DNA from: Variovorax sp. RA8
GTDB lineage: Bacteria > Pseudomonadota > Gammaproteobacteria > Burkholderiales > Burkholderiaceae_C
Direction: 5' to 3'
DNA: 64,000 bases
Assembly (NCBI RefSeq): GCF_901827175.1
Contig: NZ_LR594664.1
Span: 62,001-126,000, forward strand
Both the position numbers and the translations under genes were made by a program. The notes under the pieces were generated by a model. It did not search any database and was not told the DNA's origin. It was given only the letters and a program-made list of their open reading frames with translations. Numbering within the stretch: position 1 is the first letter of the stretch; each line of letters begins with the position of its first letter. Of this stretch, positions 5,113 to 53,126 are shown piece after piece.

Positions 5113-5700
5113 ATGACAAACTTCAATTCCGGCAACGACGGGCTGCTTTCCATCGTCCCGACTGCGCCAAGAGAAATGCGTGGAGGGTGGATCTACATTT
5201 TGATGACACGCAGCGACGGAAACAGGGTCAAGATTGGAAAGACCAAGAACAATCCGATTGAGCGATTGGCGAAGCTTCGATGCGGTGACCCTTACTTGGC
5301 AATGATCGGGTCGTTTTTCGTTCCTGAATCAATGGGTGAGATCAAGCACATCGAACAGTGGGTGCATGATTGGTTTGAAGGCAGCCGCATTAGGTTTGCA
5401 GAGCACATTCGACCATACGGCAACATGCCCGCACACTGGCTTGATGACGGCGACCTAATCGCTTACTCCGAGTGGTTCAAGATGGACGTGCTTGATGCTT
5501 CAGGCTATTTGCAACAGGCACTTGAAAAATGCCTCGAAGTCGATCGGATTTACTTGGCGAATTGGTATAGCGCCGGCTCCTATCCAACCGGGCTTGCCTT
5601 CTACACCCAAGAGATGCTGACGGAAATGTTCGGACGGCCTGTAAATGTGGATGACGACTACGAGCTAGGCGATCAGCCTGACGGTCGCATACCTTGGTAA
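5113..5700 (+). CDS. GIY-YIG-type protein (T5orf172-like domain)
   Basis: Residues 25-60 read GWIYILM...KIGKT...IERLAKL, the signature of the T5orf172 branch of GIY-YIG nucleases, often seen in phage and plasmid genes. The remaining 130 residues carry no recognised domain. GGAG at 5096 sits somewhat upstream of the start. Codon use is less GC-rich than in the neighbours, which suggests separate acquisition. Nuclease activity is inferred from the family only. Confidence 0.65.
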   Translation: MTNFNSGNDGLLSIVPTAPREMRGGWIYILMTRSDGNRVKIGKTKNNPIERLAKLRCGDPYLAMIGSFFVPESMGEIKHIEQWVHDWFEGSRIRFAEHIRPYGNMPAHWLDDGDLIAYSEWFKMDVLDASGYLQQALEKCLEVDRIYLANWYSAGSYPTGLAFYTQEMLTEMFGRPVNVDDDYELGDQPDGRIPW

Positions 5701-7063: not shown

Positions 7064-7627
7064 TCAGCACAGCCGAGACCCCTTCGGCAGCCGGCTCGCC
7101 AGCCACTCGTGCACGTCGGCCCGCACGTTCCGGCCTGCCAGAAGGAAGTCCTCGAAGCGGCTCGGCACGTAGGGGAGGTACACCAGCTTCATGCCGGCTT
7201 CCTCGGGGGTACGCGCTGCCTTGAGCGAGTTGCATGCCTTGCATGCGCTTACGCAGTTCATGAAGTCCCAGGCACCGCCGCGGCTCTCCGGGAGGATGTG
7301 CTCGACGGTCAGGTCCTGCTCGCGGAAGCGCTGCGCGCAGTAGGCGCACGTGTGGCGGTCGCGCACGAACAGCTTGCGTCGGCTGAAGGCCGGCGCCTGG
7401 TCGAACAGGTTCACTTTGGCGCAGCCCTTCAGGGCAATGATCGGCGAGATGTCGATGCGGGACTGAATGCCGCGCGCCACATTGAAGCCCCCGCGCATCG
7501 TGGCCAGCGGCCCCGCGCCGTCTTCCCAGACGACGGCGCCGGTGGCGTAGTGCGATGCAGCTTGCTCTTGCGAGATCCAGGCCTGCGGCGTTCCCTGGAT
7601 GTCGAGCTGTAGGACTTGGGGCTTCAT
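7064..7627 (-). CDS. HNH endonuclease at the 3' end of the tRNA array
   Basis: The start at 7627 has AAGGAGG just upstream on the minus strand; longer readings would run through tRNA genes. The 187-residue protein has an HNH_5-like core: RDRHTCAYC, then VEHILPESRGG, then CxxCN (ACKACN), giving the two Cys pairs and the His/Asn metal site. It is the last gene in the direction of the tRNA array. Stand-alone HNH genes of this type are common in phage genomes, including beside phage tRNA genes; whether this one is a homing enzyme or works in the array is unknown. Confidence 0.8.
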   Translation of the reverse strand: MKPQVLQLDIQGTPQAWISQEQAASHYATGAVVWEDGAGPLATMRGGFNVARGIQSRIDISPIIALKGCAKVNLFDQAPAFSRRKLFVRDRHTCAYCAQRFREQDLTVEHILPESRGGAWDFMNCVSACKACNSLKAARTPEEAGMKLVYLPYVPSRFEDFLLAGRNVRADVHEWLASRLPKGSRLC

Positions 7628-7760
7628 GGGGCGGCCTCCTTTCATGGCCGAGGTTGTGGAAGATCTCCTGCGTGATGGGGCCAGCCGGCTGGATCCGCCC
7701 CAGCGACCTCGCGCTTCGGAGGCGCGCGCGCTGTCTGACTGCGCTGCGGCTGAAATGTGT

Positions 7761-7847
7761 TGGTGCACGACCCCGGCCTCGAACCGGGATGCCCTTTCGG
7801 GCACGACGCCCTCAACGTCGCGCGTCTGCCTATTCCGCCAGCCGTGC
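7761..7847 (-). tRNA. tRNA-Leu(GAG)
   Basis: The acceptor GCACGGC pairs with GTCGTGC and is followed by A-CCA. The anticodon stem CGACG/CGTCG encloses TTGAGGG (GAG). A long variable arm and T-loop TTCGAGG are present, as expected of a class II leucine tRNA. It is the most promoter-distal tRNA of the array. Confidence 0.9.
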
Positions 7848-7856
7848 AGGTGTGTC

Positions 7857-7932
7857 TGGTGGTGCTGGATGGGAACGATCCATCGACCCCGTCCGTATGA
7901 AGGACGTACTCTGCCGACTGAGCTACAGCACC
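7857..7932 (-). tRNA. tRNA-Met(CAT), elongator type, atypical T-loop
   Basis: The acceptor GGTGCTG/CAGCACC is followed by A-CCA and the anticodon loop is TTCATAC (CAT). The G1:C72 pair excludes an initiator. The T-loop reads ATCGTTC rather than the usual TTCRANY, a strong deviation. An Ile(CAT) tRNA modified to lysidine cannot be excluded from sequence alone. Confidence 0.75.
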
Positions 7933-7989
7933 CGGCCGGAAAAAGGAATGAAGCAGCAGCAGCAGCGAATGAAAGGGGCAAGCGCCAAG

Positions 7990-8076
7990 TGGTCCCCGAG
8001 ATCCGATTCGAACGGATACGCCCTTGTGGGCCGCTGCGTTTGAGGCAGCCGCGTCTACCGGTTCCGCCACGCGGGG
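7990..8076 (-). tRNA. tRNA-Leu(CAA)
   Basis: The anticodon stem GCTGC/GCAGC encloses CTCAAAC (CAA). A long variable arm, T-loop TTCGAAT and CCA end are present. The acceptor has one mismatch (C6 against T67). Confidence 0.85.
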
Positions 8077-8093
8077 AAGTGATGTGCGAGGGA

Positions 8094-8168
8094 TGGGGCG
8101 ACTGCCGGGACTCGAACCCGAATCAGCGGGATCACAACCCGCGGCTCTGCCCTTGAGCTACGGCCGCC
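8094..8168 (-). tRNA. tRNA-His(GTG)
   Basis: The anticodon stem GCGGG/CCCGC encloses TTGTGAT (GTG). The encoded extra G at position -1 faces discriminator C73, the identity pair for HisRS, followed by CCA. The acceptor carries one mismatch. Confidence 0.9.
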
Positions 8169-8175
8169 ATCGAAC

Positions 8176-8250
8176 TGGTAGCTCTTGACGATTTTGAAAC
8201 GTCGACCTATCGGTTATCGACCGATTGCTCTGCCTCTGAGCTAAAGAGCT
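8176..8250 (-). tRNA. tRNA-Ile(GAT)-like, C33
   Basis: The acceptor AGCTCTT/AAGAGCT is perfect, with A73-CCA. The anticodon stem ATCGG/CCGAT encloses TCGATAA, which gives anticodon GAT but places C rather than the near-universal U at position 33. The T-stem has one mismatch around TTCAAAA. The identity as Ile follows from the anticodon only. Confidence 0.75.
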
Positions 8251-8262
8251 GGGGGGGAAAGG

Positions 8263-8339
8263 TGGCTCCTCGACCTGGGATCGAACCAGGGACCTGCGCA
8301 TTAACAGTGCGCCGCTGCTGCCAGCTGAGCTATGGAGGA
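8263..8339 (-). tRNA. tRNA-Asn(GTT)
   Basis: The anticodon stem GCGCA/TGCGC encloses CTGTTAA (GTT). The T-arm is canonical with loop TTCGATC, the discriminator is G and CCA is encoded. One acceptor mismatch is present. Confidence 0.9.
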
Positions 8340-8376
8340 ATGATCTGAGGACGTGGCGGCGCGCAGCCGCCACGGG

Positions 8377-8577
8377 CTACCACTCGCCGACCTCGCGCAC
8401 GCGCTGATCGAAGTCGAGCTTCTCGAAGCGTTCGCGAGCTCGCTCGGCGTCCCGGTGGCGCTTGCCCGTCATCGTGCCGAAGCCGTGAACGACGGCCTGC
8501 ACGACGGGGTTGCGGGGCTTGGAGCCAGGCACCGCTTTGCGGTTCGCCGGCCGGCGATGGCTGGTGGTGAGTCGCAT
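8377..8577 (-). CDS. Small basic protein inside the tRNA array
   Basis: A 66-codon frame with GGAGGA placed about six bases before its ATG on the minus strand. The product is Arg/Lys/His-rich in its first two thirds and may bind nucleic acid. It lies between tRNA-Asn and tRNA-Arg(CCT) in the same direction as the array, so it is probably co-transcribed. No family is recognised. Confidence 0.55.
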   Translation of the reverse strand: MRLTTSHRRPANRKAVPGSKPRNPVVQAVVHGFGTMTGKRHRDAERARERFEKLDFDQRVREVGEW

Positions 8578-8684
8578 GTGTGGTCCTCCAATCGGCGAGA
8601 TGGGGTGGTGGATCGATGATCTCTGCGAATCGGAGATCGGGGTGAGATTTTTCAGTGACGCACGTCACGCGACGGGCGTAAGGC

Positions 8685-8760
8685 TGGCGCCCTGCGGACC
8701 ATTCGAAGGTCCATCTGCCGCTTAGGAGGCGACCGCTCTATCCAGTTGAACTAGCAGGGC
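8685..8760 (-). tRNA. tRNA-Arg(CCT)
   Basis: The acceptor GCCCTGC/GCAGGGC is perfect, followed by G-CCA. The anticodon stem GTCGC/GCGGC encloses CTCCTAA (CCT), and the T-loop is TTCGAAT. It would read the AGG codon. Confidence 0.9.
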
Positions 8761-8771
8761 AGTGGTGGTGA

Positions 8772-8858
8772 TGGAGCCGCGAGTCGGGTTCGAACCGACG
8801 TGGAGCAATGCTCGCCGGGTTTGCAATCCGGCGCCTTCGACCTCTTGGCTATCGCGGC
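8772..8858 (-). tRNA. tRNA-Cys(GCA) with a long variable arm
   Basis: The acceptor GCCGCGA/TCGCGGC is perfect, followed by T73-CCA; U73 is the main CysRS identity base. The anticodon loop TTGCAAA gives GCA. The variable region contains GAGC...GCTC, an extra stem typical of class II tRNAs, whereas most bacterial tRNA-Cys have a short variable loop. Confidence 0.85.
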
Positions 8859-8898
8859 AGATCTGGGTAGGCGAAATGGGACTGCGCCGGCCCGGCCA

Positions 8899-9960
8899 TC
8901 AAGCACGAGCAGGGACAGTCTCTGTGGCGACGCGCGCCAGGCCGTTCGGGATGATCCTTTGGCCATGCATCCAGTGCGCGGTCGTCTGCACGTGATTCGC
9001 GCGAACGACCTTTGCGACATGGGTGCGGAACTGCCCGTAGCTGATGGCGTCCGCGACGGTGATGACGTAGCCCTCGCTGCGCGCCCAGTCCCGCTTGCTG
9101 TCGTACAGCCCACGAATGAGGCGCTCGTCGTAAATCCCGTCGTAGAGTACCGGGACGCTCACGATCCCGAGCAGCTCGAACCATTCCTTGGTTTCGTCCC
9201 AGCCCAGGCGTGTGTTGCATTCATCCCAGATCGAGAAGCCCATGAAGTAGCTGGGGAGGTCTCGATACTCGATCGAATGACGCGCATAGAGGTTCTCGCC
9301 GCACAAGCGCCAGCCTGGCGGCAGATCGGCGGCGATGCGGGCCCAGACCATGCCCTTCACCCAGTTGCGGCTGTCATGATGGCGGCCGTCAACGGAACGG
9401 GCATGCATGCCGTCCGAGTAGAGCGTCGTGTTCTCGCCGTCCTTCTTCTCGGTGACGATCACGCGCTTGCCGACGAAGGCGTCCATGCTGGCGATGCGGC
9501 GATCGTCGCCGTGCATGCCATCCGACCACGGGGCGTGATGCGTGCGCGGATACTTGATCCTGTCGCTGAAGTCGCCGAGGACGCCGGCGGATGCCAGGAT
9601 CTTCTGCACGCTCTCGTCGAAGAAGAGCTCGCCCTTCAACCTGGTGCCGTTGGCCATGACCGGGTTGCCCCACTTGTCATAGACCTGGTCGTCGTAGAGG
9701 TGCGAAGGGATCACGGGCTTGCGGATGCCGCAGGCGTCGCGCACCATCTCCACCGAGATGGTTGTCATCTCGCAGGCCAGGTGATGCTCCTCGCAGACGG
9801 AGGCGCCGTTGGCGAGGTAGTAGCCGCCATCGGCCCAGAGCCGACGCTCGAGGATGTGGTGGGCATCCACGGCACGCCGATCGCAGAACACACAGCCGTG
9901 ACCGTCCCTGGAGAACACGGCGTCGCGGAATGCGTCGCGCGTGAGAAGCCGCGGTTCCAT
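8899..9960 (-). CDS. HNH domain fused to an Rnl2-like RNA ligase
   Basis: AAGGAGG precedes ATG 9960 on the minus strand. Residues 15-65 form an HNH-like module (SRDGHGCVFC, DAHHILERR, CEEHH). Residues about 165-325 carry the covalent nucleotidyltransferase motifs of RNA ligases: EKKDGEN around K172 (motif I), CGENLYARHS (motif III), SEGYVI (motif IV) and VAKVVR with K317 (motif V). This arrangement resembles T4 RNA ligase 2 rather than DNA ligases. The gene lies inside the tRNA array, in the same direction, between tRNA-Cys and tRNA-Gly. Inference: repair of tRNAs cleaved by anticodon nucleases, or processing of the array transcript. The role of the HNH part is unknown. Confidence 0.8.
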   Translation of the reverse strand: MEPRLLTRDAFRDAVFSRDGHGCVFCDRRAVDAHHILERRLWADGGYYLANGASVCEEHHLACEMTTISVEMVRDACGIRKPVIPSHLYDDQVYDKWGNPVMANGTRLKGELFFDESVQKILASAGVLGDFSDRIKYPRTHHAPWSDGMHGDDRRIASMDAFVGKRVIVTEKKDGENTTLYSDGMHARSVDGRHHDSRNWVKGMVWARIAADLPPGWRLCGENLYARHSIEYRDLPSYFMGFSIWDECNTRLGWDETKEWFELLGIVSVPVLYDGIYDERLIRGLYDSKRDWARSEGYVITVADAISYGQFRTHVAKVVRANHVQTTAHWMHGQRIIPNGLARVATETVPARA

Positions 9961-9984
9961 GGTGGTCCTCCTTGGGAATGTGGA

Positions 9985-10058
9985 TGGAGCGAGCCGCGGG
10001 AGTCGGACCCGCCTCTACGCCTTGGAAGGGCGCCGCCTAACCGCTCGGCCAGGCTCGC
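9985..10058 (-). tRNA. tRNA-Gly(TCC)
   Basis: The acceptor GCGAGCC/GGCTCGC is perfect and the discriminator is U, as in bacterial glycine tRNAs. The anticodon stem GCGCC/GGCGT encloses CTTCCAA (TCC). The T-loop is TCCGACT. Confidence 0.85.
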
Positions 10059-10065
10059 GTGTGGA

Positions 10066-10150
10066 TGGTGAAGCGCCAGGGTTTCGAACCCCGTATGTCA
10101 GAGACGCCGGATTTACAGTCCAGTGCAGTCACCCATGCTGCTCGCGCTTC
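10066..10150 (-). tRNA. tRNA-Tyr(GTA)
   Basis: The acceptor GAAGCGC/GCGCTTC is perfect with A73-CCA. The anticodon loop CTGTAAA gives GTA. A long variable arm is present, as in normal bacterial tRNA-Tyr, and the T-loop is TTCGAAA. Confidence 0.9.
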
Positions 10151-10159
10151 AGGTGTAGG

Positions 10160-10236
10160 TGGTCCCGCGCACACGGCTCGAACGTGCAACCCCCGGCTTC
10201 GTAGGCCAGTGCTCTATCCAATTGAGCTAACGCGGG
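10160..10236 (-). tRNA. tRNA-Arg(ACG)
   Basis: The acceptor CCCGCGT pairs with GCGCGGG, followed by A-CCA. The anticodon stem CTGGC/GCCGG encloses CTACGAA (ACG), which needs A34-to-inosine editing by host TadA to read CGC and CGA. The T-loop is TTCGAGC. Confidence 0.9.
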
Positions 10237-10257
10237 AGGGAATGAGGTTGTGGGTGA

Positions 10258-10349
10258 TGGCGGATGCGGAGCGAGTCGAACGCTCGTGACGGCTTGCGCC
10301 ATCCATCTGATTTCGAATCAGCGCCCTTAGACCACTCGGGCACGCATCC
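10258..10349 (-). tRNA. tRNA-Ser(CGA)
   Basis: The acceptor GGATGCG/CGCATCC is perfect with G73-CCA. The anticodon loop TTCGAAA gives CGA, and a long variable arm is present. The outer base pair of the anticodon stem is mismatched. Confidence 0.85.
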
Positions 10350-10367
10350 AGGGGAGGTTGAAGAGGT

Positions 10368-10459
10368 TGGAGGAGAAGAGGGGATTCGAACCCCTGTGCC
10401 GCATTCCTGCGACCACCGCATTTCCAATGCGAGCCATTGAGCCGCTCTGGCACTTCTCC
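10368..10459 (-). tRNA. tRNA-Ser(GGA), U73
   Basis: The acceptor GGAGAAG/CTTCTCC is perfect. The anticodon loop TTGGAAA gives GGA, and the long variable arm is clear. The discriminator is U instead of the G usual in bacterial serine tRNAs. Confidence 0.85.
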
Positions 10460-10476
10460 GCGGATTGACGGAAGGC

Positions 10477-10570
10477 TGGAGGAAGACGCGGGATTCGGAC
10501 CCGCGACCGAGGGGTAAGCCTCGATACCTGGGTTCAAGCCAGGCGCAATAAGCCGCTCTGCCAGTCTTCC
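10477..10570 (-). tRNA. tRNA-Ser(TGA), U73
   Basis: The acceptor GGAAGAC/GTCTTCC is perfect. The anticodon stem CCTGG/CCAGG encloses CTTGAAC (TGA). The long variable arm is present and the discriminator is again U. Confidence 0.85.
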
Positions 10571-10579
10571 GGCTATTGG

Positions 10580-10655
10580 TGGTGCAGCCCCGAGGTGTCG
10601 AGCCTCGCCCTCCTGCGTTTCAGACAGGCGCTTCCACTGGGTTAGCTTGAGCTGC
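10580..10655 (-). tRNA. tRNA-Phe(GAA)
   Basis: The acceptor GCAGCTC/GGGCTGC pairs with G-U wobbles and is followed by A-CCA, with a second CCA directly after it in the DNA. The anticodon stem CCTGT/GCAGG encloses CTGAAAC (GAA). The T-loop is CTCGACA. Confidence 0.85.
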
Positions 10656-10660
10656 GAGGT

Positions 10661-10736
10661 TGGCGCTCCGAGGGGGGATCGAACCCCCGGCTTCCTCCTA
10701 GACAGGGAGGCACTCTCGCCGCTGAGTTATCGGAGC
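10661..10736 (-). tRNA. tRNA-Asp(GTC)
   Basis: The acceptor GCTCCGA/TCGGAGC is perfect with G73-CCA. The anticodon stem CCTCC/GGAGG encloses CTGTCTA (GTC). The T-loop is TTCGATC. It lies five bases from tRNA-Phe. Confidence 0.9.
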
Positions 10737-10745
10737 CCTGTTGAT

Positions 10746-10821
10746 TGGTGGAGAAGATCGGGATCGAACCGATGACCCTCTGCTTGCAAAGCAGGCGCTC
10801 TCCCAGCTGAGCTACCTCCCC
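10746..10821 (-). tRNA. tRNA-Ala(TGC)
   Basis: The anticodon loop TTTGCAA gives TGC and the discriminator is A. The acceptor GGGGAGG/CTTCTCC pairs with two G-U wobbles; the G3:U70 wobble that marks alanine tRNAs is present. The T-loop is TTCGATC. Confidence 0.9.
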
Positions 10822-10829
10822 AGGGAAAC

Positions 10830-10918
10830 TGGCGGGGCGTACTCGATTCGAACGAGTGGGCCGCGTGAGCGACCACGGCTTAGCAAGCCGCTGCCTTGGA
10901 CCTCTCGGCCAACGCCCC
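10830..10918 (-). tRNA. tRNA-Ser(GCT)
   Basis: The acceptor GGGGCGT/ACGCCCC is perfect with G73-CCA. The anticodon loop TTGCTAA gives GCT. The variable arm is long and the T-loop is TTCGAAT. Confidence 0.9.
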
Positions 10919-11015
10919 GGTATGGTGTCCGGTTACGAGTTCCGGAGTCCGCCCTATCTTGCGGCCGGTTTCCGCGAGAGGACGATCTGTGCATCGCCCA
11001 GTCTCGCTTCTTGTT

Positions 11016-11091
11016 TGGTCGGGGTGGCAGGTCTCGAACCTGCGGCCTGAAGCTCCCAAAGCTACCGCGCTACCAGCTGCGCCACACCCCG
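11016..11091 (-). tRNA. tRNA-Pro(TGG)
   Basis: The acceptor CGGGGTG/CACCCCG is perfect with A73-CCA; C1:G72 is typical of proline tRNAs. The anticodon stem GTAGC/GCTTC encloses TTTGGGA (TGG). The T-loop is TTCGAGA. Some 97 bases with no recognisable gene separate it from tRNA-Ser(GCT). Confidence 0.9.
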
Positions 11092-11105
11092 GCGTGCGAA
11101 CAAAT

Positions 11106-11182
11106 TGGCAGACCGTGCACGATTCGAACGTGCGGATGCCGGAATCAAAATCCGGTGCCTTAACCAGCTTGGCGAACGGCCC
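11106..11182 (-). tRNA. tRNA-Gln(TTG)
   Basis: The anticodon stem CCGGA/TCCGG encloses TTTTGAT (TTG). The acceptor GGGCCGT/ACGGTCT contains G-U wobbles, including a weak first pair as favoured by GlnRS. The discriminator is G and CCA is encoded. Confidence 0.9.
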
Positions 11183-11232
11183 ATGTGCTTCGAAGTCAAC
11201 GTAGAGTCGTGAGAATCAACGTCGGCTGATAT

Positions 11233-11311
11233 TGGTTGCGCGAGCCAGATTTGAACTGGCGATCTCGAGCGTATGAAACTCGCGGGGACGACCAGGCTCC
11301 CCCATCGCGCG
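11233..11311 (-). tRNA. tRNA-fMet(CAT)-like initiator with C1xA72
   Basis: The acceptor CGCGCGA faces TCGCGCA, leaving a C1xA72 mismatch, the hallmark of bacterial initiator tRNA. A73-CCA follows, the anticodon loop is TTCATAC (CAT), and the D-loop has AGCCTGGT, as in initiators. The three consecutive G:C pairs normally at 29-31:39-41 are absent (AGT against GCT), so function at the ribosomal P site is uncertain. Confidence 0.8.
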
Positions 11312-11339
11312 GAATTTTGACGAACGATGCGTCTGTAAC

Positions 11340-11416
11340 TGGAGTCGCGTGCGGGATTCAAACCCGCGTCTACGGGCATGAAAGGCCCGTGTCCTGGATC
11401 GCTAGACGAACGCGAC
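11340..11416 (-). tRNA. tRNA-Glu(TTC)
   Basis: The acceptor GTCGCGT/ACGCGAC is perfect. The anticodon stem CGGGC/GCCCG encloses CTTTCAT (TTC). The T-loop is TTTGAAT. The discriminator is U rather than the usual G. Confidence 0.85.
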
Positions 11417-11426
11417 GTTGTGATCG

Positions 11427-11503
11427 TGGTGCCCAAGGTCTCGATTCGAACGGACGACCGTCTCCTTACAGGGGAGCTACTCTGCCAGCTGAGTTACAAG
11501 GGC
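11427..11503 (-). tRNA. tRNA-Thr(TGT)-like, degenerate
   Basis: The anticodon arm GCTCC/GGAGA encloses CCTGTAA, giving TGT with C at position 33. The acceptor GCCCTTG against CTTGGGC has two T-T mismatches, and the T-stem beside TTCGAAT hardly pairs. It may be a decayed gene or an unusually divergent tRNA. Confidence 0.55.
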
Positions 11504-11534
11504 GGGGGGCGAATGCGGTTGGTGCGACGGGGTG

Positions 11535-11610
11535 TGGCGGGCATCACAGGAGTCGAACCTGTAACCTCCGGTTTTGGAGACCGGCGCTCTGCCAGTTGAG
11601 CTAGACACCC
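11535..11610 (-). tRNA. tRNA-Trp(CCA)
   Basis: The anticodon stem CCGGT/ACCGG encloses CTCCAAA (CCA). The acceptor GGGTGTC/GATGCCC pairs with wobbles, the discriminator is G and CCA is encoded. The T-loop is TTCGACT. Confidence 0.9.
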
Positions 11611-11618
11611 GAATTATT

Positions 11619-11703
11619 TGGTCCCCTGAGAAGGCCTCGAACCTTCATGCCTTGCGGCGCCGCGCCCTGAACGCGGTGTGTCTGCCAATTCCACCATCGG
11701 GGG
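11619..11703 (-). tRNA. tRNA-Leu(CAG)
   Basis: The anticodon stem CCGCG/CGCGG encloses TTCAGGG (CAG). A long variable arm and T-loop TTCGAGG are present. The acceptor CCCCCGA/TCAGGGG has one mismatch. A73-CCA follows. Confidence 0.85.
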
Positions 11704-22417: not shown

Positions 22418-24201
22418 TCACTTCGGTTTGCCGGAACGCGCAGCCATGGTGCCGTCCCGGAACTGGATTTCAATGGGCTGCTCTGGCGCGGCCTGCGCCA
22501 GGCTGGTGATGGGCTGGCCCGCTGCGTCGCGGACGATGGCGAAACCCCGATTGAGGGTCTTCTCGGGGCCTTGCCCGGTGACCTCGCGGATCAGCGCTTC
22601 TGAGTTCGCGCGGGCGCGGCTCAGCGTGGTTGTGGCCCGCTCACCCATCACCGCGAACTGGGTGTCCGCCTGGCGCCGCGCAGCGCGCGCGCCGGCGCTG
22701 GCCCGGTCGAGGACGGTGTTGAGCGCGAGCCGCGAGCTGCTGCGGGCTTCCGCCAGGCCGGAGGTGGCGCGAGCCTGTACCTCGGCCATGTGCTTCGGCA
22801 CGAGCTGGCGCGCGGTGGCCACCTGGGCCGCGGCGCCCTCGCGCACCTGGGTCATCAGCCGCAGGCTGTCCCGGCCGGCCTGGTGGACGTCTCGCACGGC
22901 CGCCAAACCGATCGCATTATCGCGTCCCGGCTCTTCTGGCGCACGCGCGCCACGCTTGCGGTAGCGTCCGCCGCCACCTGGCCATGGGCGCGCTCAACGG
23001 CCGCCCGCATCTCGCGAACCGCCCGCGCTGCGGCGCCCATGATCGCATCGGAGGCGGCCTTGGCCTCGCGCGCCCGGCGGGCGATGAGCTTCTCGATCGC
23101 GCCGATCACCTTGCTGGGCGTGTCGAACTTCGCGAATGCGACCTCGTCGAGGATGGTGCTGTCGCGTTCGTGCCCGATGCCGGTCAGGACCGGGAGGGGC
23201 TGATCGCAGATAAATCTTGCCAGGTCGTAGTTGTCGAGCCATGCAAGATCGTTCACCGCGCCGCCGCCGCGGATGATGGCGATCGCATCGGGCAGGTCAT
23301 CATCCGCTGCGCATTCGTCCAGCGCGGCCGATAGCGCCGCGACGATCTCGCGGGCCGCACCTTCGCCCTGGAAGCGACTGTGCACGTAGGTGAAGCGGCA
23401 GATCCCGAACTGCGCGAGGCGATCGGATTCCTTGCGGAAGTCGCCGAGGCCGGCCGCCTCGTGCGGCGCAACGACCAGCACCGAGGTGAAGTCCCACGGC
23501 GGTGGCACATGCTTGTTCTGCTCGAAGACGCCCTCGCGCTGCAGGCGCGCCCGGATCTCCCTCTTGCGGGCTTCCAGATCGCCCAGCGTGTACTCCGAGT
23601 CGATGGCATCGATCTCGAGGCTGAAGCCGTACTGGGCCTTGAAGGTTGGCCTGGCGCGAACGAGCAGCTTGATGCCCGCGGCGATCGAGGCGCCGGTGGC
23701 GCGCTCGAACTCGGGCAGGATCTTGCTCGCGACGTTTGCCCAGATCATGGCGTGCGCCTTTGCGAGCACCTGGCCGGCCTTGTCCCGCTCCGACACTTCG
23801 AGGTAGACGTGGCCACTGCCGAGCTTCGCGTTCACGACTTCGACCATCGTCCAGACGCCGCCCTTGAAAGCCTGTGCGATCGCGGTGGCCACGCCACCCA
23901 GCAGGCGCGACAAGGGGATGCCCTTCGCCGTCGGTGCTAGCTCGCCGCCGGCTGGGACGGCGACCTCCCGCGGGGCGAACAGGTCCGAGGCGTTGGCCGA
24001 CGGGGCTGCTGGCACCGCGGGCGAGCCGGTGGTGGTCGGCAGGTGGTCCCACTTCGCGAAGGCCGACAGATCTACATCGGGACGAACCCACCAACGTCGG
24101 CACTCGGGGTCATAGCGCGCGCCCAACGCCTTCGCGGCATCTTTCTCCTTGAAGGGGACGTTGAGGTAGTGGCGCTCTTCCATGAGGTGATTTTCGGGCA
24201 T
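22418..24201 (-). pseudogene. xseA: Exodeoxyribonuclease VII large subunit with N-terminal DUF5710 domain, frame broken
   Basis: Residues 10-50 (LNVPFKEKDAAKALGARYD, then RRWWVRPD) match DUF5710. The rest follows XseA: GSGHVYLEV of the OB-fold region, IAIIRGGGAVNDLAWL and LTGIGHERDSTILDEVA of the catalytic core, then coiled helices. The first frame stops at 22855; the C-terminal part (NRGFAIVRDAAGQPI, IEIQFRDGTMAA) continues in another frame and stops at 22418. One indel near 22890-22910 explains this. The product may be inactive unless the break is a sequencing error. Confidence 0.75.
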
Positions 24202-45293: not shown

Positions 45294-45734
45294 GTGAAGC
45301 GTCAACTCCTCAAAACAATAGGTCGCGCGCTGATTGGCGTTCTGATTTTCGCGCAGATGGCGATCGCCGCCTATGCATGCCCCACGCTTTTGTCCAGCGC
45401 CGCAACCACGATGGAAATGTCGTCGGGCAGCGAGGCGCTGCGCGAGCCGAGCGGCAACCCGCAGCAGGCTGGAGCTCAGGTCGCAGAGTGCGGCGATATG
45501 GCCGGAGCGGCCGACACGTCCTCTCCGAATCTCTGTGCGGAGCATTGCCGCACCAGTCAGCAAAGCGATCACGCCTCGACGCTGACGGTGCCCTTCGTAC
45601 TCCTCACAACACTTCTCATCACCCCCTACGCGACCGATGTCGCGATGCGGCCGCGCCCTGCGGCCGCTGCGTCGAGTGCATTGGCTTCGGTGGATCCGCC
45701 GCACGCCATCCTGCACTGCTGTTTCCGAACTTGA
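45294..45734 (+). CDS. Exported protein preceding the efflux operon
   Basis: GGAGG lies before GTG 45294. A signal peptide (IGVLIFAQMAIAAYACP) is followed by Met- and Cys-containing segments (MEMSSGSE, CGDMAGA, NLCAEHC) and a second hydrophobic stretch. The C-terminus PPHAILHCCFRT resembles the end of the 52017 product ([11 protein letters not shown]), so the two flanking proteins may be relatives. A metal-related role is inferred from context. Confidence 0.5.
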   Translation: MKRQLLKTIGRALIGVLIFAQMAIAAYACPTLLSSAATTMEMSSGSEALREPSGNPQQAGAQVAECGDMAGAADTSSPNLCAEHCRTSQQSDHASTLTVPFVLLTTLLITPYATDVAMRPRPAAAASSALASVDPPHAILHCCFRT

Positions 45735-45876
45735 TCTCTCAGACGACGTTGCGCTGACGGCCCCTCAATGGGGTCGGCTCGGTGCATCGGTCGTGCTCGC
45801 CTGCGCCCGTGAGCTTCTGCTCGCGCTGGCGCACCGGGCGCAACACGAAGCCATTGTTTCGCTGTCTGGAGATTTC

Positions 45877-47202
45877 ATGTTCATCGTTTCATTCCTGGCT
45901 GCACCACGAGGAAGGCGAGCTCGCCTGTCGCTCGCGGCAACTGCGTTGTGCCTGACCCTCACAACCCTGAGCGCGTACGCCGAGCCCGCGCTGACGCTCG
46001 AACGCGCAGTGGAGCTGGCGCAGCAACGCTCGCGTCAACTCACTGCACAGGATGCCGCCGCGTCAGCCTCGCGCGAGATGGCGGTCGCCGCCGGGCAGTT
46101 GCCCGATCCAACGCTCAAGGCCGGAATCAACAATCTGCCCGTCAATGGTGAAGACCGCTTCAGCCTGACGCGCGATTTCATGACCATGCGCTCCATTGGC
46201 GTGATGCAGGAGTTCACGCGCGGCGACAAGCGCCAAGCCAGGGCGACTCGCTTCGAACGAGAGGCCGAGGCGGCCGAAGCAGGACGTGCCGTGGCACTCG
46301 CCAGTCTGCAGCGGGACACTGCAGCCGCCTGGCTGGACCGCCACTACCAGGAACGTGTGCGTGCCATTCTGGTCGCTCAGCGTGACGAAGCAGGCCTTCA
46401 GATCGAGGCTGCCGACGCCGCCTACCGAGGGGGCCGAGGCTCGCAGGCCGATGCGTTCGCCGCGCGTTCGGCCGTCGCACAGATCGATGACCGCATCCGA
46501 CAAGCCGACAGGCAGATCGCGACGGCCAAAACGAAGCTTGCGCGCTGGGTCGGTGATGGCGCCAATCAGGAGCTTGCCGCCCCGCCGGACCTAGCGGACG
46601 TCCAGCTCGATGCACGCAGCCTCGACATCCAGATCGCGAACCACCCGCAGATCGCCATGCTGGCCAGGCAAGAGGAAGTCGCGCGCGCTGAGGCCGAGGT
46701 GGCCCGAAGCAACAAGCACTCCGATTGGAGCGTGGAACTGATGTACAGCCAGCGCGGCTCCGCCTACTCGAACATGGTCTCGCTCAATGTCTCGATCCCG
46801 CTGCAAGTCGACCCGGCGAAACGACAGGATCGCGAGCTTGCCGCCAAGCTGGCCCTGGCGGATCAGGCACACGACCAGCGCGAGGAAGCCATTCGCGAGC
46901 GTCTGGCGGAAGCACGCAGCTGGCTGCAAGAGTGGCAGAGCAACCGGGACCGCCTGACTCAATACGACAGGACGTTGATCCCACTTGCCTCAGAGCGCAC
47001 GCGCGCCGCGATGGCGGCGTATCGGGGAGGTGGGCTGCTCACCAGCGTGCTCGAGGCCCGGCGCATGGAGATCGACACGCGCATGGAACGGGTTCGTCTC
47101 GAGATGGAGACTGCTGGCCTGTGGGCGCAACTCAACTACTTGATTCCGATCGAGCGCCGATCGGCTCTGCAGGGTCGCGCATCGGAAGCGACGGAGAAGT
47201 GA
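45877..47202 (+). CDS. cusC: Outer-membrane efflux protein, CusC-like
   Basis: GGAGA precedes ATG 45877; the longer frame upstream overlaps the previous gene. A signal peptide ends near AYAEPALT. The rest shows the two TolC-family repeats with long coiled helices (LTLERAVELAQQRSRQL and later EAIRERLAEARSWLQEW). It is two bases from the adaptor gene, so cusC-cusB-cusA form one operon that exports Cu(I)/Ag(I) across the envelope. Confidence 0.8.
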   Translation: MFIVSFLAAPRGRRARLSLAATALCLTLTTLSAYAEPALTLERAVELAQQRSRQLTAQDAAASASREMAVAAGQLPDPTLKAGINNLPVNGEDRFSLTRDFMTMRSIGVMQEFTRGDKRQARATRFEREAEAAEAGRAVALASLQRDTAAAWLDRHYQERVRAILVAQRDEAGLQIEAADAAYRGGRGSQADAFAARSAVAQIDDRIRQADRQIATAKTKLARWVGDGANQELAAPPDLADVQLDARSLDIQIANHPQIAMLARQEEVARAEAEVARSNKHSDWSVELMYSQRGSAYSNMVSLNVSIPLQVDPAKRQDRELAAKLALADQAHDQREEAIRERLAEARSWLQEWQSNRDRLTQYDRTLIPLASERTRAAMAAYRGGGLLTSVLEARRMEIDTRMERVRLEMETAGLWAQLNYLIPIERRSALQGRASEATEK

Positions 47203-47204
47203 AC

Positions 47205-48863
47205 ATGAAGCTCAAACCCCTTTTGATCGGATCGATCGCCGCCGGCGTCCTCGCCGCGGCGGGCTTCGGCTTGTACACCCTCGGCATGCAGCGCGGCATG
47301 GGCTTGGCGGGAGCGCCCGCCGTATCTGGCAGTGCGGCGCCCGCGCCGGCTGCCGCGGCAACGGCAGCACAGGGCAACGAGACGGGCGAGGACGCCACTC
47401 GGCGCCATATGGCCGCCGGCCTCAAAGCCGGCGACACCGACCCCGCGAACGGAAAGAAGATCCTCTACTACCACGACCCCATGGTGCCGGGAAACAAGTT
47501 CGACAAGCCGGCCAAGTCGCCTTTCATGGACATGATGATGTCGCCGGTCTATTCCGGTGGCGACGGCGACCAGAACAACGTGACCGTGAGCCCGCGCGTC
47601 CAGCAAAACCTGGGCGTGCGCACTGCAGTCGTGTCGGAGGGCACGCTGTCGCCGCAGGTCGCCGCGGTCGGCAGTATCGCCTTCAACGAGCGCGACCAGG
47701 TCATCGTGCAGGCGCGGGCAACCGGCTACGTCGAGCGCCTGCACGTGCGTGCCACGCTCGACCGCGTGTCCAGGGGTCAGCCGCTCGCCGAACTTTACGT
47801 TCCCGACTGGATTGCAGCCCAGGAGGAGTTCCTGTCGGTTCAGCGCATGCGTGGGACCGACCTGGCCCCATTGGTCGATGGTGCTCGCCAGCGCATGCGA
47901 CAGGTCGGTATGAGTGAGGGCCAGATCGAACTCGTGGCACGCACCGGCCGCACGCAGCCCCGCATCACGCTGGTTGCGCCGATCGGTGGCGTCATCACCG
48001 AATTGACGACGAGAGAGGGGATGACGGTGATGCCGGGCGCCACGCTGTTTCGCATCAACGGCCTTTCCACTGTCTGGGCCAACGCCGAGGTGCCGGAAAG
48101 CCAGGCGGCTCTGCTGCGACCAGGCGCCAAGGTGCAGGCCAGGAGCCCGGCCGCACCCGGCGAAACCTTCGACGGCAAGGTGCAGGCCATCCTCCCCGAC
48201 GTCAACCCGGCGACGCGCACCCTGAAGGCGCGGCTGGAGCTCGCGAACCCGGGCGCGCGGCTGGTGCCGGGCATGTTCGTGTCGATGCAGTTCATGGACA
48301 TGCGCGCCGGCAAGGTGCTGCTGATTCCGACCGAGGCCGTCATCCAGACGGGCAAGCGCACCGTCGTCATGCTGGCCGAGGAGAACGGCCGCTTCAGCCC
48401 GGTGGATGTCGAGATCGGCATCGAGAGCGGCGGCCAGACCGAGGTCAAGGGCGGCCTGCAGGCCGGCCAGCGCGTGGTGGTGTCTTCCCAGTTCCTGATC
48501 GACTCGGAGGCCAGCCTCAAGGGCGTCGAGGCGCGCCTGAACAGCGTGCCGGCATCGGGCGCTGCGCCTTCCGGCGCTGCAGCCGCGAGCGCTCCAAGAC
48601 ACGTGGGCGAAGGCAAGGTGGAAAGCCTGAGCAAGGATGCGATGACCTTGTCGCATGGCCCCATCTCCACGATGAAGTGGGGCCCGATGACGATGGACTT
48701 CAAGCTGCCCACGGGCGGCGCACCGCGCAATGTCCAGACCGGCGACCGTGTGACCTTCGAGTTCTTCATGGACAAGGACGACCTGCCGCAGCTCACCCGG
48801 GTGACGCCGATGGCGCCCGAGGCCAAGGCGGCAGCGCCCGCTGCAACGGGAAGCAAGCAATGA
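47205..48863 (+). CDS. cusB: Membrane-fusion adaptor CusB with C-terminal CusF-like domain
   Basis: An N-terminal membrane anchor is followed by a heavy-metal-binding motif ([20 protein letters not shown] then MDMMMSPVY). The adaptor core includes [14 protein letters not shown] and [17 protein letters not shown]. Residues about 470-540 form a CusF-like domain ([36 protein letters not shown]) with the His, Trp and two Met residues that bind Cu(I)/Ag(I). The fusion puts the periplasmic metal chaperone on the adaptor. The stop overlaps the cusA start (ATGA). Confidence 0.85.
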
Positions 48864-51800
48864 TCGCCAGGCTCATTCGATGGTCGATCGGCAACCGCTT
48901 CCTGGTGTTGCTGGCCACGCTGATGATCAGCGCCTGGGGCGTGTATTCGGTGTCGAAGGCGCCACTCGACGCGCTGCCGGATCTGTCGGACGTGCAGGTC
49001 ATCATCCGCACGACCTATCCGGGGCAGGCACCGCGCATCGTCGAGAACCAGATCACCTATCCGCTGACGACGACGATGCTGTCGGTGCCGGGCGCGAGGA
49101 CGGTGCGCGGCTATTCGTTCTTCGGCGACTCGTTCGTGTACGTGCTGTTCGACGACGGCACCGACCTGTACTGGGCGCGCTCACGCGTGCTCGAATACCT
49201 GAACCAGGTGCAGTCGCGCCTGCCGGCCGGCGCGAAGGCTGCGCTCGGCCCCGACGCCACCGGCGTGGGCTGGATCTACCAGTACGCGCTGGTCGACCGC
49301 AGCGGCACGCAAGACGCCTCGCAGCTGCGCGCCCTGCAGGACTGGTTCCTGAAGTACGAGTTGAAGACCGTCCCCAACGTTGCCGAGGTGGCCTCGGTGG
49401 GCGGCATGGTGCGGCAGTACCAGGTCGTGCTGGACCCCGACAAGCTCGCCGCCTACAGGATTCCGCACACCAAAGTCGTCGAAGCGATCCAGAAGGCCAA
49501 CCAGGAGACGGGCGGGTCGGTGCTCGAGCTCGGTGAGGCCGAGTACATGGTCCGCGCCTCAGGCTACCTCCAGAGCTTGGATGATTTCCGCAAGGTGCCG
49601 CTCATGACGACCGATGCCGGCGTGTCGGTGCGCCTGGGCGATGTGGCACGCATCCAGGTCGGCCCCGAGATGCGCCGCGGCATCGGCGAGCTCGACGGCG
49701 AGGGCGAAGCAGCAGGCGGCGTGATCGTGATGCGCTCGGGAAAGAACGCGCTGGAGACCATTGCCGCGGTGAAGGAAAAGCTCAAGACGCTGCAGGCAAG
49801 CCTGCCCCGGGGCGTGGAGATCGTGCCGACCTACGACCGGTCGAGCCTGATCGAGCGCGCGGTGCAGAACCTGAGCCACAAGCTGCTGGAGGAGTTCCTC
49901 GTCGTCGCGGTGGTGTGTTTCATCTTCCTGTTCCACCTGCGATCGGCCTTCGTTGCCATCGTGTCGCTGCCGATCGGCATCCTGGCCGCCTTCATCGTGA
50001 TGCACTACCAGGGCGTCAATGCCAACATCATGTCGCTCGGCGGCATCGCGATCGCCATCGGTGCGATGGTCGATGCGGCGGTCGTGATGATCGAGAACGC
50101 CCACAAGCACATCGAGCAGTGGAACCACGAACATCCGGGCCAGACATTGCGCGGTGAGCCGCACTGGCGCGTGATCGCCGATTCGGCGGCCGAGGTGGGG
50201 CCGGCGCTGTTCTTCTCGCTGCTGATCATCACGCTGTCCTTCATTCCGGTGTTCACGCTGGAGGCGCAGGAGGGGCGGCTGTTCTCGCCGCTGGCCTTCA
50301 CCAAGACCTACGCGATGGCGGCCGCGGCCGGCCTTTCGGTGACCCTGATCCCCGTGCTGATGGGCTACCTGATCCGCGGCAAGATTCCCGACGAGAAGAC
50401 CAATCCGCTCAATCGCTTTCTCATCGCGGCCTATCGGCCGTTGCTGAACGCGGTGCTGCGCTGGCCGAAGCTGACGCTGGTGGGCGCCGCAATCGTTCTG
50501 GTGCTGAGCCTGTGGCCGCTGCAGCACATCGGCGGCGAGTTCATGCCGCGGTTGGACGAGGGCGACCTGCTCTACATGCCGTCGGCACTTCCGGGCCTGT
50601 CGGTGGGCAAGGCCGGCGAGCTGCTGCAGCAGACCGATCGCCTGATCAAGACCGTGCCGGAGGTGGCCAGCGTCTTCGGCAAGGCCGGGCGCGCGGAGAC
50701 GGCCACTGATCCGGCGCCGATGGAGATGTTCGAGACCACGATCCAGTTCAAGCCGCAGAACGAGTGGCGAGCCGGCATGACGCAGGACAAGCTGGTCGAG
50801 GAGCTCGACCGCATCGTCAAAGTGCCGGGCCTGACCAACATCTGGGTGCCGCCGATCCGCAACCGCATCGACATGTTGGCCACGGGCATCAAGAGCCCTG
50901 TCGGCGTGAAGGTCGCAGGCACTGACCTCGTCACGATCGACCGCTTGACGGGTGAGATCGAACGTGCGCTCAAGAACGTGCCAGGCGTGTCGAGCGCATT
51001 GGCCGAGCGCCTCACCGGTGGCCGCTACGTGGATGTGAACATCAAACGCGACGAGGCGGCGCGCTTTGGCATGAACATCGCAGACGTGCAGTCGGTGATC
51101 GCCTCGGCGGTGGGCGGCGAGAACATCGGCGAGACGGTCGAAGGCCTGCAGCGCTTCCCCATCAACATGCGCTACCCGCGCGAGATCCGCGATTCTCTGG
51201 AGAAGCTGCGGACGCTTCCGATCGTCACCGAACGCGGCGCGCGGCTGGTGCTTTCCGACGTGGCGGATATCCGCATCACCGACGGCCCGCCGATGCTGCG
51301 CAGCGAGAACGCGCGGCTGTCCGGCTGGGTGTATGTGGACATTCGTGGGCGCGACCTCCGCTCGGCGGTGCAGGACATGCAGCGCGTGGTCGCGAAAGAG
51401 GTGAAGCTGCCGCCGGGCTATTCGATCTCCTGGTCGGGGCAGTTCGAGTTTCTGGAGCGCGCCACCGCGAAGCTGAAGGTGGTCGTTCCCTTTACGCTCC
51501 TGATCATCTTCGTGCTGCTGTACCTGACCTTCAAACGCTTCGACGAGGCGCTGCTGATCATGGCCGCACTGCCCTTCGCGCTGGTGGGCGGCATCTGGCT
51601 GCTGTACCTGCTCAGCTATAACCTGTCCGTCGCCGGGGCGGTTGGATTCATTGCACTCGCCGGCGTGTCCGCCGAGTTCGGCGTGATCATGCTGCTGTAC
51701 CTCAAGCACGCTTGGCAGGACCGCATCGACGAGGGACGCACCGAAATCGCCGACCTGCTGGAAGCCATCCGCGAAGGCGCGGTGCTGCGCGTGCGGCCCA

Positions 51801-52030
51801 AGGCGATGACGGTCGCCGTCATCCTGGCCGGCCTGTTCCCGATCATGTGGGGCAGCGGCACCGGCTCGGAGGTGATGCAGCGCATCGCGGCGCCGATGGT
51901 GGGCGGGATGATCACTGCGCCGCTGCTGTCGATGTTCGTGATTCCGGCGGCGTACTTGCTGATGCGCCGGCCCCGTGAGCAACGCGCACCTGGGCTTGCG
52001 TTCTGGAGAAGGCGCCATGGCACGAGCTGA
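48860..52030 (+). CDS. cusA: Heavy-metal RND efflux pump CusA
   Basis: The 1056-residue length and twelve membrane segments fit the HME-RND family. The N-terminus ([18 protein letters not shown]), the [15 protein letters not shown] motif, [19 protein letters not shown] in the fourth membrane region and [16 protein letters not shown] are characteristic of CusA/SilA proteins. It exports monovalent copper or silver using the proton gradient with CusB and CusC. Confidence 0.9.
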
Positions 52031-52379
52031 ATGCCTCCGACGATGGCGTGCACGCTTTGGCGTCGCGCTGTTCCTGTGCCTGGCGCTGCTCGGCGCGGGA
52101 GCGCGGGCGTCGATGCCTGTGATGCAGCAGGCCGGGCCGCAAGCGATCTCGATCATTGCCTCGGAGTCGATGCCGATGGCCTCGGACCGCATGCCCTGCG
52201 CGCGCTGCTACGTCGCTCCGGCACCAGCGTCGCACGGCTTCAGTGGCGAGTGCAGGGAGCATGAAGCGCCAATTTGGAGGGTTCATGCCCCGTCGATGCT
52301 CGATGCGGAGAATTTCGACATGGGAGGCCAGCTTGTACGGTTGCCAGTGCGCATCCTGTACTGCCGGTGGCTGGATTGA
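52017..52379 (+). CDS. Exported protein following cusA
   Basis: GGAGAAGG precedes ATG 52017, which overlaps the end of cusA by 14 bases. A signal peptide ([17 protein letters not shown]) is followed by Met/Cys/His-containing stretches ([24 protein letters not shown]) and a C-terminus [11 protein letters not shown]. It is likely part of the operon; the function is unknown but a periplasmic metal role fits. Confidence 0.55.
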
Positions 52380-52440
52380 TCGGTAGCGCGAGCTTCATCG
52401 CTCGCGCTCGCTTTGTACCGATCAACTTCAGGAGCTCATC

Positions 52441-52735
52441 ATGAAAAGGCTACTCATCACCTTCATCGGCGCCCTCACGCTGGCGGCCACCTTGCCGGTC
52501 CTTGCCGGCCCCGACCTCCAGGCCATCGAGCAGGCGCGCAAGGCGAAGCAGGTCGCGCAGGCCGACCTCCGTGCGACCCGGCCCGTCTCCGGAGCGAGAT
52601 CCCCGAGATGTCCGCCCAAGCCGCTGGTGCTGCCGCTGGACCATGGCCCGCGCGCAGACCACGCCTGCCGAGAACCAGCGGCGCAAGAACCGCCATGAGA
52701 CGCAGGTGAAGGCGTGCAAGGAAGGGATGAAGTGA
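52441..52735 (+). pseudogene. Small periplasmic protein gene with a frame break
   Basis: The first frame has a signal peptide (LITFIGALTLAATLPVLAG) and CPPKPLVLPLDHGPRA; the matching end (QTTPAENQRRKNRHETQVKA then CKEGMK) is in another frame. The break falls in the short GC repeat at about 52650 and equals a loss of two bases or gain of one. Related small proteins follow copper-efflux genes elsewhere (from memory). Product role unknown. Confidence 0.55.
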
Positions 52736-53076
52736 ATCCACTGCGCCAATAGCGACCTCGTTGTTGGCGCTTGCCGCGATCGGCCCAGAATCGCACCAAG
52801 GTGCCTGCGATGCCGGTCTGCCGCGGCGCGCCGCGAGGACCGCTTCGATGGGGCGTGGCGCCCAGGAATCCAGGTCCGCAGGGGGCGGCGGTGTGGCCGA
52901 TCGTGCCCGCTATGGTTATTGCTGCAGCGCCGCGATTGCACGCCCGCGCCGCCATGGCCTTGCCGTGTACGCGGACGGGCGTTGGTCCAAGGCGGAGGGG
53001 CCGGCGCACGTGCGTCCAGAAGGACTGCTCAATCCGTAAAAAGATGATCTAGCCGGGCTTAGCCTGCAGATAGCGG
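52736..53076. other. Non-coding stretch upstream of the P-type ATPase gene
   Basis: Several open frames cross it but none has a ribosome site or family signal. The right end leads into the metal-responsive promoter at 53077-53107. Confidence 0.35.
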
Positions 53077-53107
53077 TTGACCTTCCCAGGGTGGGAGGGT
53101 TGAGACT
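53077..53107 (+). promoter_or_regulatory. CueR-type promoter of the His-rich ATPase gene
   Basis: TTGACC (-35) and GAGACT (-10) are separated by 19 bases, the long spacer of MerR-family promoters. The spacer holds the dyad ACCTTCCC...GGGAGGGT. The same elements occur before copZ and copA. Confidence 0.75.
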
Positions 53108-53126
53108 CGCGATATAGGAGATATCA

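Follow-up and report, generated by a model that had tools for sequence, protein, structure and literature searches.

An HNH module and an RNA ligase encoded together in a tRNA array

We analyzed a 64,000-nucleotide (nt) window of Variovorax sp. RA8 (NZ_LR594664.1, positions 62,001 to 126,000; coordinates below are those within the window), in which a long array of tRNA genes encloses a gene for an HNH-RNA ligase fusion protein. Family matches and a ratio of nonsynonymous to synonymous substitution rates (dN/dS) of 0.13 against the 90%-identical copy of Variovorax sp. JS1663 exclude a chance open reading frame (ORF) and confirm a real gene. PHROG 24030 ('RNA ligase') matches the protein over its full length (residues 4-341, E 2.1e-134), and the Pfam family RNA_ligase (PF09414) matches residues 166-319 (E 3.8e-28). 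Toward the N-terminus, several HNH PHROGs match residues 6-117 (best E 9.7e-05) and the HNH domain of IscB resembles the module (E 0.0063 at best), although no HNH model of Pfam matches the protein. The linker joining the two parts, residues 86-132, has no Pfam family match.

The residues expected of both activities are present. The HNH module has H35, N51 and H60 together with the zinc cysteines C23, C26 and C56, while the ligase part has the lysine, EG pair and second lysine that characterize Rnl2 adenylyltransferases, which we take to be motif I (K172), motif IV (E296-G297) and motif V (K317). In the structural model, blocks of residues 1-90 reach a predicted local distance difference test (pLDDT) score of 91-98, and the ligase domain is predicted to adopt a nucleotidyltransferase fold whose nearest neighbors are RNA ligases, not DNA ligases. 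Residues 345-353 are disordered, leaving no room for a further domain behind the ligase. Full-length chains of T4 RNA ligase 2 (Rnl2; 317-319 residues) align with the model only up to residue 231-234; T4 Rnl2 has a C-terminal domain specific to it, which the window protein lacks, carrying an N-terminal HNH module instead. Rnl5 ligases (Naegleria, DraRnl) have an OB-type module ahead of the ligase domain. Some alignments with the Naegleria ligase start at model residue 88 and chain residue 3, and residues 1-85 of the window protein are the HNH module. The protein is an HNH-Rnl2 fusion, with nuclease-type module and ligase in one chain. This agrees with a preliminary description of the locus, which had seen an HNH module joined to all core motifs of an Rnl2-like ligase, in a gene lying between tRNA genes of the same direction; the nucleotidyltransferase domain on which that description depended is indeed predicted.

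Both parts are shown by alignment to be intact and under strong constraint. Invariant across a 99-row alignment, made without L051, L057, L060, L086 and L092 (where the matched stretch overran the stop codon) and other listed rows, are C23, C26, H34, H35, N51, C56 and H60 of the HNH part, K96, W97, R107 and V118 of the linker, and K172, D174, G175, E176, E222, E296, G297 and K317 of the ligase part. A larger set of 218 rows, near-duplicates included, comprised the window protein, 80 viral loci, 120 listed homologs and 17 further rows drawn from genomes, phages and plasmids, the last including two separate proteins of Variovorax sp. SRS16 and an HNH-less protein of Deinococcus radiodurans. All 217 ligase-bearing rows of this set keep K172, D174, G175, E222, E296 and G297; K317 is kept in 216 of them and E176 in 214. 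H35 and N51 are kept in all 216 rows aligned there, and H34 and H60 are each changed in four. The H60-changed rows (L012, L155, L157 and L161) are relatives on Pseudomonas megaplasmids that keep K172 and the zinc cysteines C26 and C56. Since all four fall in one clade of a quick tree (96% by the Shimodaira-Hasegawa-like approximate likelihood ratio test, SH-aLRT), a single loss of the HNH cutting site may have occurred in this clade, with the ligase retained.

ARAGORN finds 23 tRNA genes in the array, all on the minus strand, to which Rfam adds two, making 25 in about 4 kilobases (kb), above the 20 or more clustered tRNA genes that define a "tRNA array unit". The fusion gene occupies a 1126-nt gap. 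The remaining spacers are shorter than 60 nt save three (97, 90 and 345 nt), the 90-nt spacer containing tRNA-Phe. A CCA end is encoded in all 24 array tRNA genes inspected, and 18 amino acids are covered, Lys and Val being absent. In the genome (7.42 Mb, 4 contigs), 19 of 67 Rfam tRNA matches are on the window's contig, C3, all within the array; the other 48 lie on contig C1, so the array is a second tRNA set. C3 is presumably a plasmid, because related arrays occur on plasmids of 0.56 to 1.19 Mb, and the fusion gene is presumably co-transcribed with the array.

Table 1. Features of the tRNA array and the fusion gene in the window (aa, amino acids)
Feature	Position	Strand	Evidence
HNH2 gene (PF14279, 193 aa), just past last tRNA	7064..7645	-	Pfam, array comparison
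tRNA array, 25 tRNA genes	7761..11703	-	ARAGORN and Rfam
66-aa ORF in other large array gap	8377..8577	-	JS1663 88%, WDL1 94%, Polaromonas 44% over 52 aa
tRNA-Cys(gca), directly downstream of ligase gene	8772..8858	-	ARAGORN
HNH-RNA ligase fusion gene, 353 aa	8899..9960	-	ORF, ATG start, Pfam, PHROG, alignments, fold
Rnl2-like adenylyltransferase (ligase) domain, residues 133-341	8938..9564	-	Pfam, alignments, fold comparison
Conserved linker, residues 86-132	9565..9705	-	Pfam, 99-row alignment
HNH module, about residues 1-85 (C23, C26, H34, H35, N51, C56, H60)	9706..9960	-	HNH PHROGs, IscB HNH, conservation, pLDDT
Shine-Dalgarno-like AAGGAGG	9967..9973	-	Direct reading; 6 nt upstream of fusion-gene ATG
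tRNA-Gly(tcc), directly upstream of ligase gene	9985..10058	-	ARAGORN
tRNA-Phe	10583-10655		Rfam addition
tRNA-Thr	11430-11503		Rfam addition

The 66-aa ORF has no Pfam match. Elsewhere in the window, a T5orf172 gene, presumably of GIY-YIG type, is found near the array end (5113-5697, plus strand), a single ORF combines an exonuclease VII large-subunit domain with DUF5710 (22858-24201, minus strand), and heavy-metal efflux genes occupy 45637-55394 (OEP, an ORF with CusB/HlyD and CusF, and a P-type ATPase).

Relatives of the fusion and sister arrays

Relatives are numerous: 6,686 of 8,000 scored candidates match the fusion protein at E up to 1e-3. Matches occur in 33 annotated phage records (144 to 735 kb), 16 of them over 80% of the query, and in 56 plasmid records, 11 of them over 80%, the latter on records of 0.39 to 1.32 Mb. 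The named records with full-length relatives are large phages and plasmids; phage relatives include those of Caulobacter, Salicola and Acinetobacter phages and of Halogranum virus HGTV-1. Full-length copies are present in two of 101 genomes of the genus, counting the window's own, which is the only one among 299 genomes of the family; other matches in these genomes are to the ligase part or the HNH part alone. In G343, a genome of the same genus, the coordinates of the ligase equal those in the JS1663 contig. The preliminary description suggested that the locus could be a tRNA repair or processing system not yet described as such; the fusion itself is already in print: PMC7824862, in its available text, describes N-terminal HNH fusions of Rnl2-family ligases, proposes RNA repair and attack on DNA for them, and cites Burroughs and Aravind 2016 as source. 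What is uncommon is the setting, and in the titles, abstract openings and passages of open-licence literature that were searched we found no paper describing an HNH-ligase fusion inside tRNA arrays.

Of 600 plasmid records that match the array, four were compared. None of them holds the ligase in the examined stretch (the arrays of Variovorax WDL1, V. paradoxus SPNA7, Methylibium RPME01 and Polaromonas P1-6), and these records lie outside the 56 ligase-matching plasmids. The WDL1 array has the tRNA order of JS1663 over most of its length, and its Gly-Cys spacer retains the last ligase codons and the spacer downstream of them (local score 117, against a best of 29 in 500 shuffles that preserve base composition only, as in all scar tests here). 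A second array of the genus, L175, keeps 31 nt of the ligase-gene 3' end (score 42 against 32). A probable 3'-end scar in L171 is borderline, with a score of 26 reached by 1 of 500 shuffles, and L173 has no scar by this test (score 18, reached by 123 of 500).

Judging from the 3'-end scars that persist in sister arrays, the ligase gene was present in the ancestor of these arrays and was later lost. Repeated loss is likely, though unproven, because the WDL1 and L175 scars end differently on both left and right and the neighboring HNH2 gene is 95% identical to that of the window in WDL1 and 87% in L175. A homing insertion, with WDL1 as the empty site, was rejected, since retained ligase codons mean a lost gene. 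As a further sign of ligase loss, V. paradoxus ISL-3 (L015, equivalent to G328:C38 and L127) carries a C-terminal ligase fragment, with no tRNA in 10 kb on each side.

Of the proteins encoded with the compared arrays, HNH2 is the constant one and the fusion is not. HNH2 follows the tRNAs in all six arrays compared, and all 30 HNH2 loci taken from the genus adjoin tRNA genes, from 2 up to 13 each, many being short tRNA groups; the flanks inspected reach 1.5 kb, so that absence of the ligase there is no proof, and paralogs of 50-53% identity stand outside this tRNA count. Some HNH2 match is found in 98 of 101 genomes of the genus, in many through the paralog of about 52% (50-53%). In the Methylibium petroleiphilum array (L164, 4097-5449), genes for an HD_4 protein and an AlkB-like 2OG oxygenase stand among the tRNA genes, which suggests that array cargo is exchangeable. 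A NADAR protein is encoded about 2 kb ahead of that array.

A candidate role in RNA repair and its alternatives

The best available clue to function comes from the neighbors of relatives. On a plasmid of Pseudomonas sp. FeN3W, the start of the HNH-ligase gene is overlapped by a gene whose AAA_33 product matches HD weakly (below cut-off) and is 49% identical to the HD-polynucleotide kinase (HD-Pnk) of SRS16 and 28% to that of D. radiodurans. On the SRS16 plasmid (L153, 3123-5616), ligase, stand-alone HNH and HD-Pnk are consecutive, as if the fusion were split, and the HNH protein is 50% identical to residues 2-129 of the window fusion. In D. radiodurans, the ligase is accompanied by the same kinase type. 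Among 106 loci searched (duplicates included), there was no further locus with an HD-Pnk of this kind; Thg1-like proteins occur in eight, CCA-adding enzymes in eight and macro domains in six. These neighbors suggest a role in healing and sealing the ends of nucleic acids, RNA being the more probable substrate.

Our tentative interpretation is that the product of the fusion gene is an accessory enzyme by which mobile elements repair RNA through sealing, encoded along with spare tRNAs and optional as cargo of its array. The gene would be transcribed together with the tRNAs, and the product, an ATP-type ligase charged with AMP on K172, would reseal 5'-phosphate/3'-OH breaks in structured RNA. We infer the rest of the scheme, namely that tRNA cleaved by defense nucleases of the host or of rivals is the most likely substrate, and that breaks with other ends may first be healed by the HD-Pnk found beside some relatives. 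The HNH module would grip nucleic acid that is damaged, and most members could cut it as well. HNH nucleases leave 5'-phosphate and 3'-OH ends, just the kind of ends on which the ligase would act. In the plasmid clade that lost H60, the grip would have been kept and the cut lost. The optional cargo would add repair to a spare tRNA set.

Several results weigh against this reading. The content of the array gives no pointer to a substrate. Thg1 and RlaP are found in 13 and 14, respectively, of 29 whole phage records, yet Thg1 is less than 5 kb from the ligase in only 2 of 13 places and RlaP in 1 of 15; frequent in the same records and seldom adjacent, they were rejected as close partners. The window's genome has no match to RlaP, nor to the HD-Pnk of FeN3W, the latter search being run without a positive control. 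DRB0100 of D. radiodurans, a ligase-only protein and the closest relative that has been studied, took AMP on K40 but failed to ligate any of the DNA and RNA substrates tried, and with its operon partners it gave no DNA ligation, according to the available text of PMC1997131.

The association of the family with tRNA genes is also loose. Among the best 80 of 317 viral loci (near-duplicates included), a tRNA lies less than 1 kb from the ligase in 12, and on both sides within that distance in two. We compared ligase positions with random positions in the same contig, taking tRNAs among the best-scoring matches listed; of 35 viral contigs 100 kb or longer, 29 were used and G418, with no tRNA among the matches listed, was then dropped, leaving 28. 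Neither at 2 kb (5 of 28 against 3.1 expected, P 0.18) nor at 5 kb (8 of 28 against 5.3, P 0.12) was the excess significant, and one was seen only within 10 kb (14 of 28 against 8.0, P 0.008, uncorrected for the three thresholds tried). The mean distance percentile over the 28 contigs was 0.38 (one-sided Kolmogorov-Smirnov P 0.045, Fisher P 0.056), and the first 16 contigs alone gave no excess (mean 0.41, P 0.12 and 0.36 by the same tests). On a tree of 84 rows, with eleven names left out, the near-tRNA label (21 rows, less than 2 kb) is scattered, requiring 16 changes against a shuffled mean of 18.8, with 29 of 500 shuffles as low.

Some tRNA lies in the examined stretch of 36 of the 80 viral loci, of one of nine plasmid loci and of none of the six phage and plasmid loci L008-L013. 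From the locus counts, the distance test and the scatter on the tree, the tRNA link of the family is at most modest, regional, recurrent and labile, with no fixed partnership; a fixed tRNA-array system was rejected on the same grounds. The tie to tRNA genes drawn in the preliminary description therefore stands insofar as relatives are sometimes found among tRNAs, and fails as a fixed arrangement, given the viral and plasmid counts and the sister arrays without ligase. In one phage clade (L053, L064 and L065), the HNH-ligase gene precedes tRNA-Cys(gca) by 8 to 203 nt; the window gene likewise precedes it, by 40 nt. ARAGORN also calls 'Pyl' tRNAs, with anticodon CTA where given and thus possible amber suppressors, in phage stretches L051, L067, L076, L087, L106, L110 and L122.

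The looseness of this link favors an alternative that we regard as possible though rather unlikely, in which the position within the array is incidental: the protein would work in RNA or DNA repair generally, on behalf of large mobile elements, and tRNA islands would simply be the spots where these elements collect cargo for translation and repair. Consistent with this are the 68 of 80 viral loci with no tRNA within 1 kb, the eight of nine plasmid loci with none in the stretch, the four ligase-free sister arrays and the scars (seen in WDL1 and L175, probable in L171, absent from L173), and the other cargo of the Methylibium array. However, relatives exceed expectation within 10 kb of tRNAs, the two intact in-array Variovorax copies are under purifying selection, and in 32 of the 36 tRNA-bearing viral loci all tRNAs among those listed (up to 12 per locus) are on the ligase strand, with phage strand bias uncontrolled.

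Another alternative, unlikely in our estimation, is that the protein acts on DNA, the HNH part cutting or nicking rival or host DNA while the ligase seals the element's own DNA or RNA/DNA breaks. The available text of PMC7824862 suggests attack by the HNH part on superinfecting phage or host DNA, and PMC1997131, as far as its text was available, reports that DRB0100 expression climbs strongly after irradiation. In L052, L055, L056 and L079, a gene for an ATP-dependent DNA ligase is found 174-354 nt upstream, and in L060 the distance is 650 nt, in a locus set from which 14 near-duplicate names were left out (L058, L068/L069 and L075 being thereby unrepresented); Pfam was run on the L056 protein only, and L052, L055, L056 and L060 are mutually close kin. 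On the other side, the predicted fold is nearest RNA ligases rather than DNA ligases, one clade loses H60 yet keeps K172, and DRB0100 showed no DNA ligation under the conditions tested (PMC1997131, available text).

The preliminary description had invoked rescue from PrrC-type anticodon nucleases. Rescue by the fusion gene alone was rejected: ligases of this class require a 5'-phosphate and a 3'-OH (PMC7824862, available text), PrrC-type rescue needs end-healing enzymes, and no match to RlaP or, in the search without a positive control, to HD-Pnk was found in the genome. Cuts by AriB of the PARIS system are different in kind; on tRNA, a 3'-OH was shown and a 5'-phosphate is expected from mechanism (PMC12409363, available text), and a kinase-free ligase could therefore undo them. 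In a more specific version, which we hold improbable, the tRNA arrays of megaplasmids and giant phages would be counter-defense islands combining spare tRNAs with an exchangeable repair gene (the HNH-ligase in the window, the AlkB-like and HD proteins in Methylibium), where the HNH-ligase directly reseals tRNAs cut by metal-dependent defense nucleases of the AriB type with no end-healing, its HNH module recognizing or trimming the cut tRNA.

It is very unlikely that the gene is a free-standing homing-type HNH gene spreading into tRNA arrays with the ligase as passenger: tRNA arrays often carry HNH genes interpreted as homing enzymes (PMC5966550 and PMC6409571, in part), and the gene sits just upstream of tRNA-Cys(gca) in two separate settings, Variovorax and the L053/L064/L065 clade, but at least two ligase-free sister arrays (WDL1 and L175) carry deletion scars and not clean empty sites, the ligase is constrained as strongly as the HNH part, and relatives have many different neighbors.

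For the RNA-repair interpretation, the in-array copy and the sister arrays that lost it form natural pairs with and without the ligase, in which to ask whether spare tRNAs and RNA repair cooperate against tRNA-cutting immunity, and the H60-less clade provides a natural case in which sealing can be studied apart from cutting.

Comparison with known systems

The closest counterparts are the HNH-Rnl2 fusions of jumbo phages (PMC7824862, available text), which share the N-terminal HNH module, the Rnl2-type ligase and PHROG 24030. The window copy differs in lying on a bacterial, plasmid-like contig between the tRNAs of a long array. Despite the size of the family, we found no report, in the literature available to us, testing an HNH-ligase, the only tested relative found being DRB0100. 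We identify it by gene order with D. radiodurans DR_RS15960, a protein of 210 aa with 51% identity over 210 aa of the ligase domain, because the order ligase, TIGR02452, AAA/HD protein equals DRB0100-0099-0098 in the available text of PMC1997131 and PMC11833690. The likeness is one of ligase-domain kinship: DRB0100 consists of the adenylation domain only (PMC1997131, available text), without HNH, and its neighbors are TIGR02452 and HD-Pnk with no tRNAs, whereas those of the window gene are tRNAs, the 66-aa ORF and HNH2.

T4 Pnkp-Rnl1, a system cited in PMC12409363, repairs PrrC-cut tRNA. Rnl1 is of a different ligase family. Its likeness to the window system is the proposed sealing of RNA as an answer to tRNA cutting; the T4 system pairs a kinase-phosphatase with the ligase, whereas no kinase-phosphatase was found among the 20 window ORFs scanned with Pfam. 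A parallel to the window array is found in Anabaena, where, in the available text of PMC10272220, the repressor TrcR controls a plasmid tRNA operon that translational stress switches on, and the trcR mutant shows raised levels of RtcB ligase, of an HNH gene and of a TIGR02452 gene.

The tRNA array units of Mycobacterium (PMC5966550 and PMC12803027, main texts) have been interpreted as a putative antidefense system. The word 'ligase' is absent from both main texts. As here, dense and redundant tRNAs are combined with an HNH gene on a mobile element, and the constant HNH gene of our arrays, HNH2 rather than the fusion, is likened to the Mycobacterium HNH gene by its setting.
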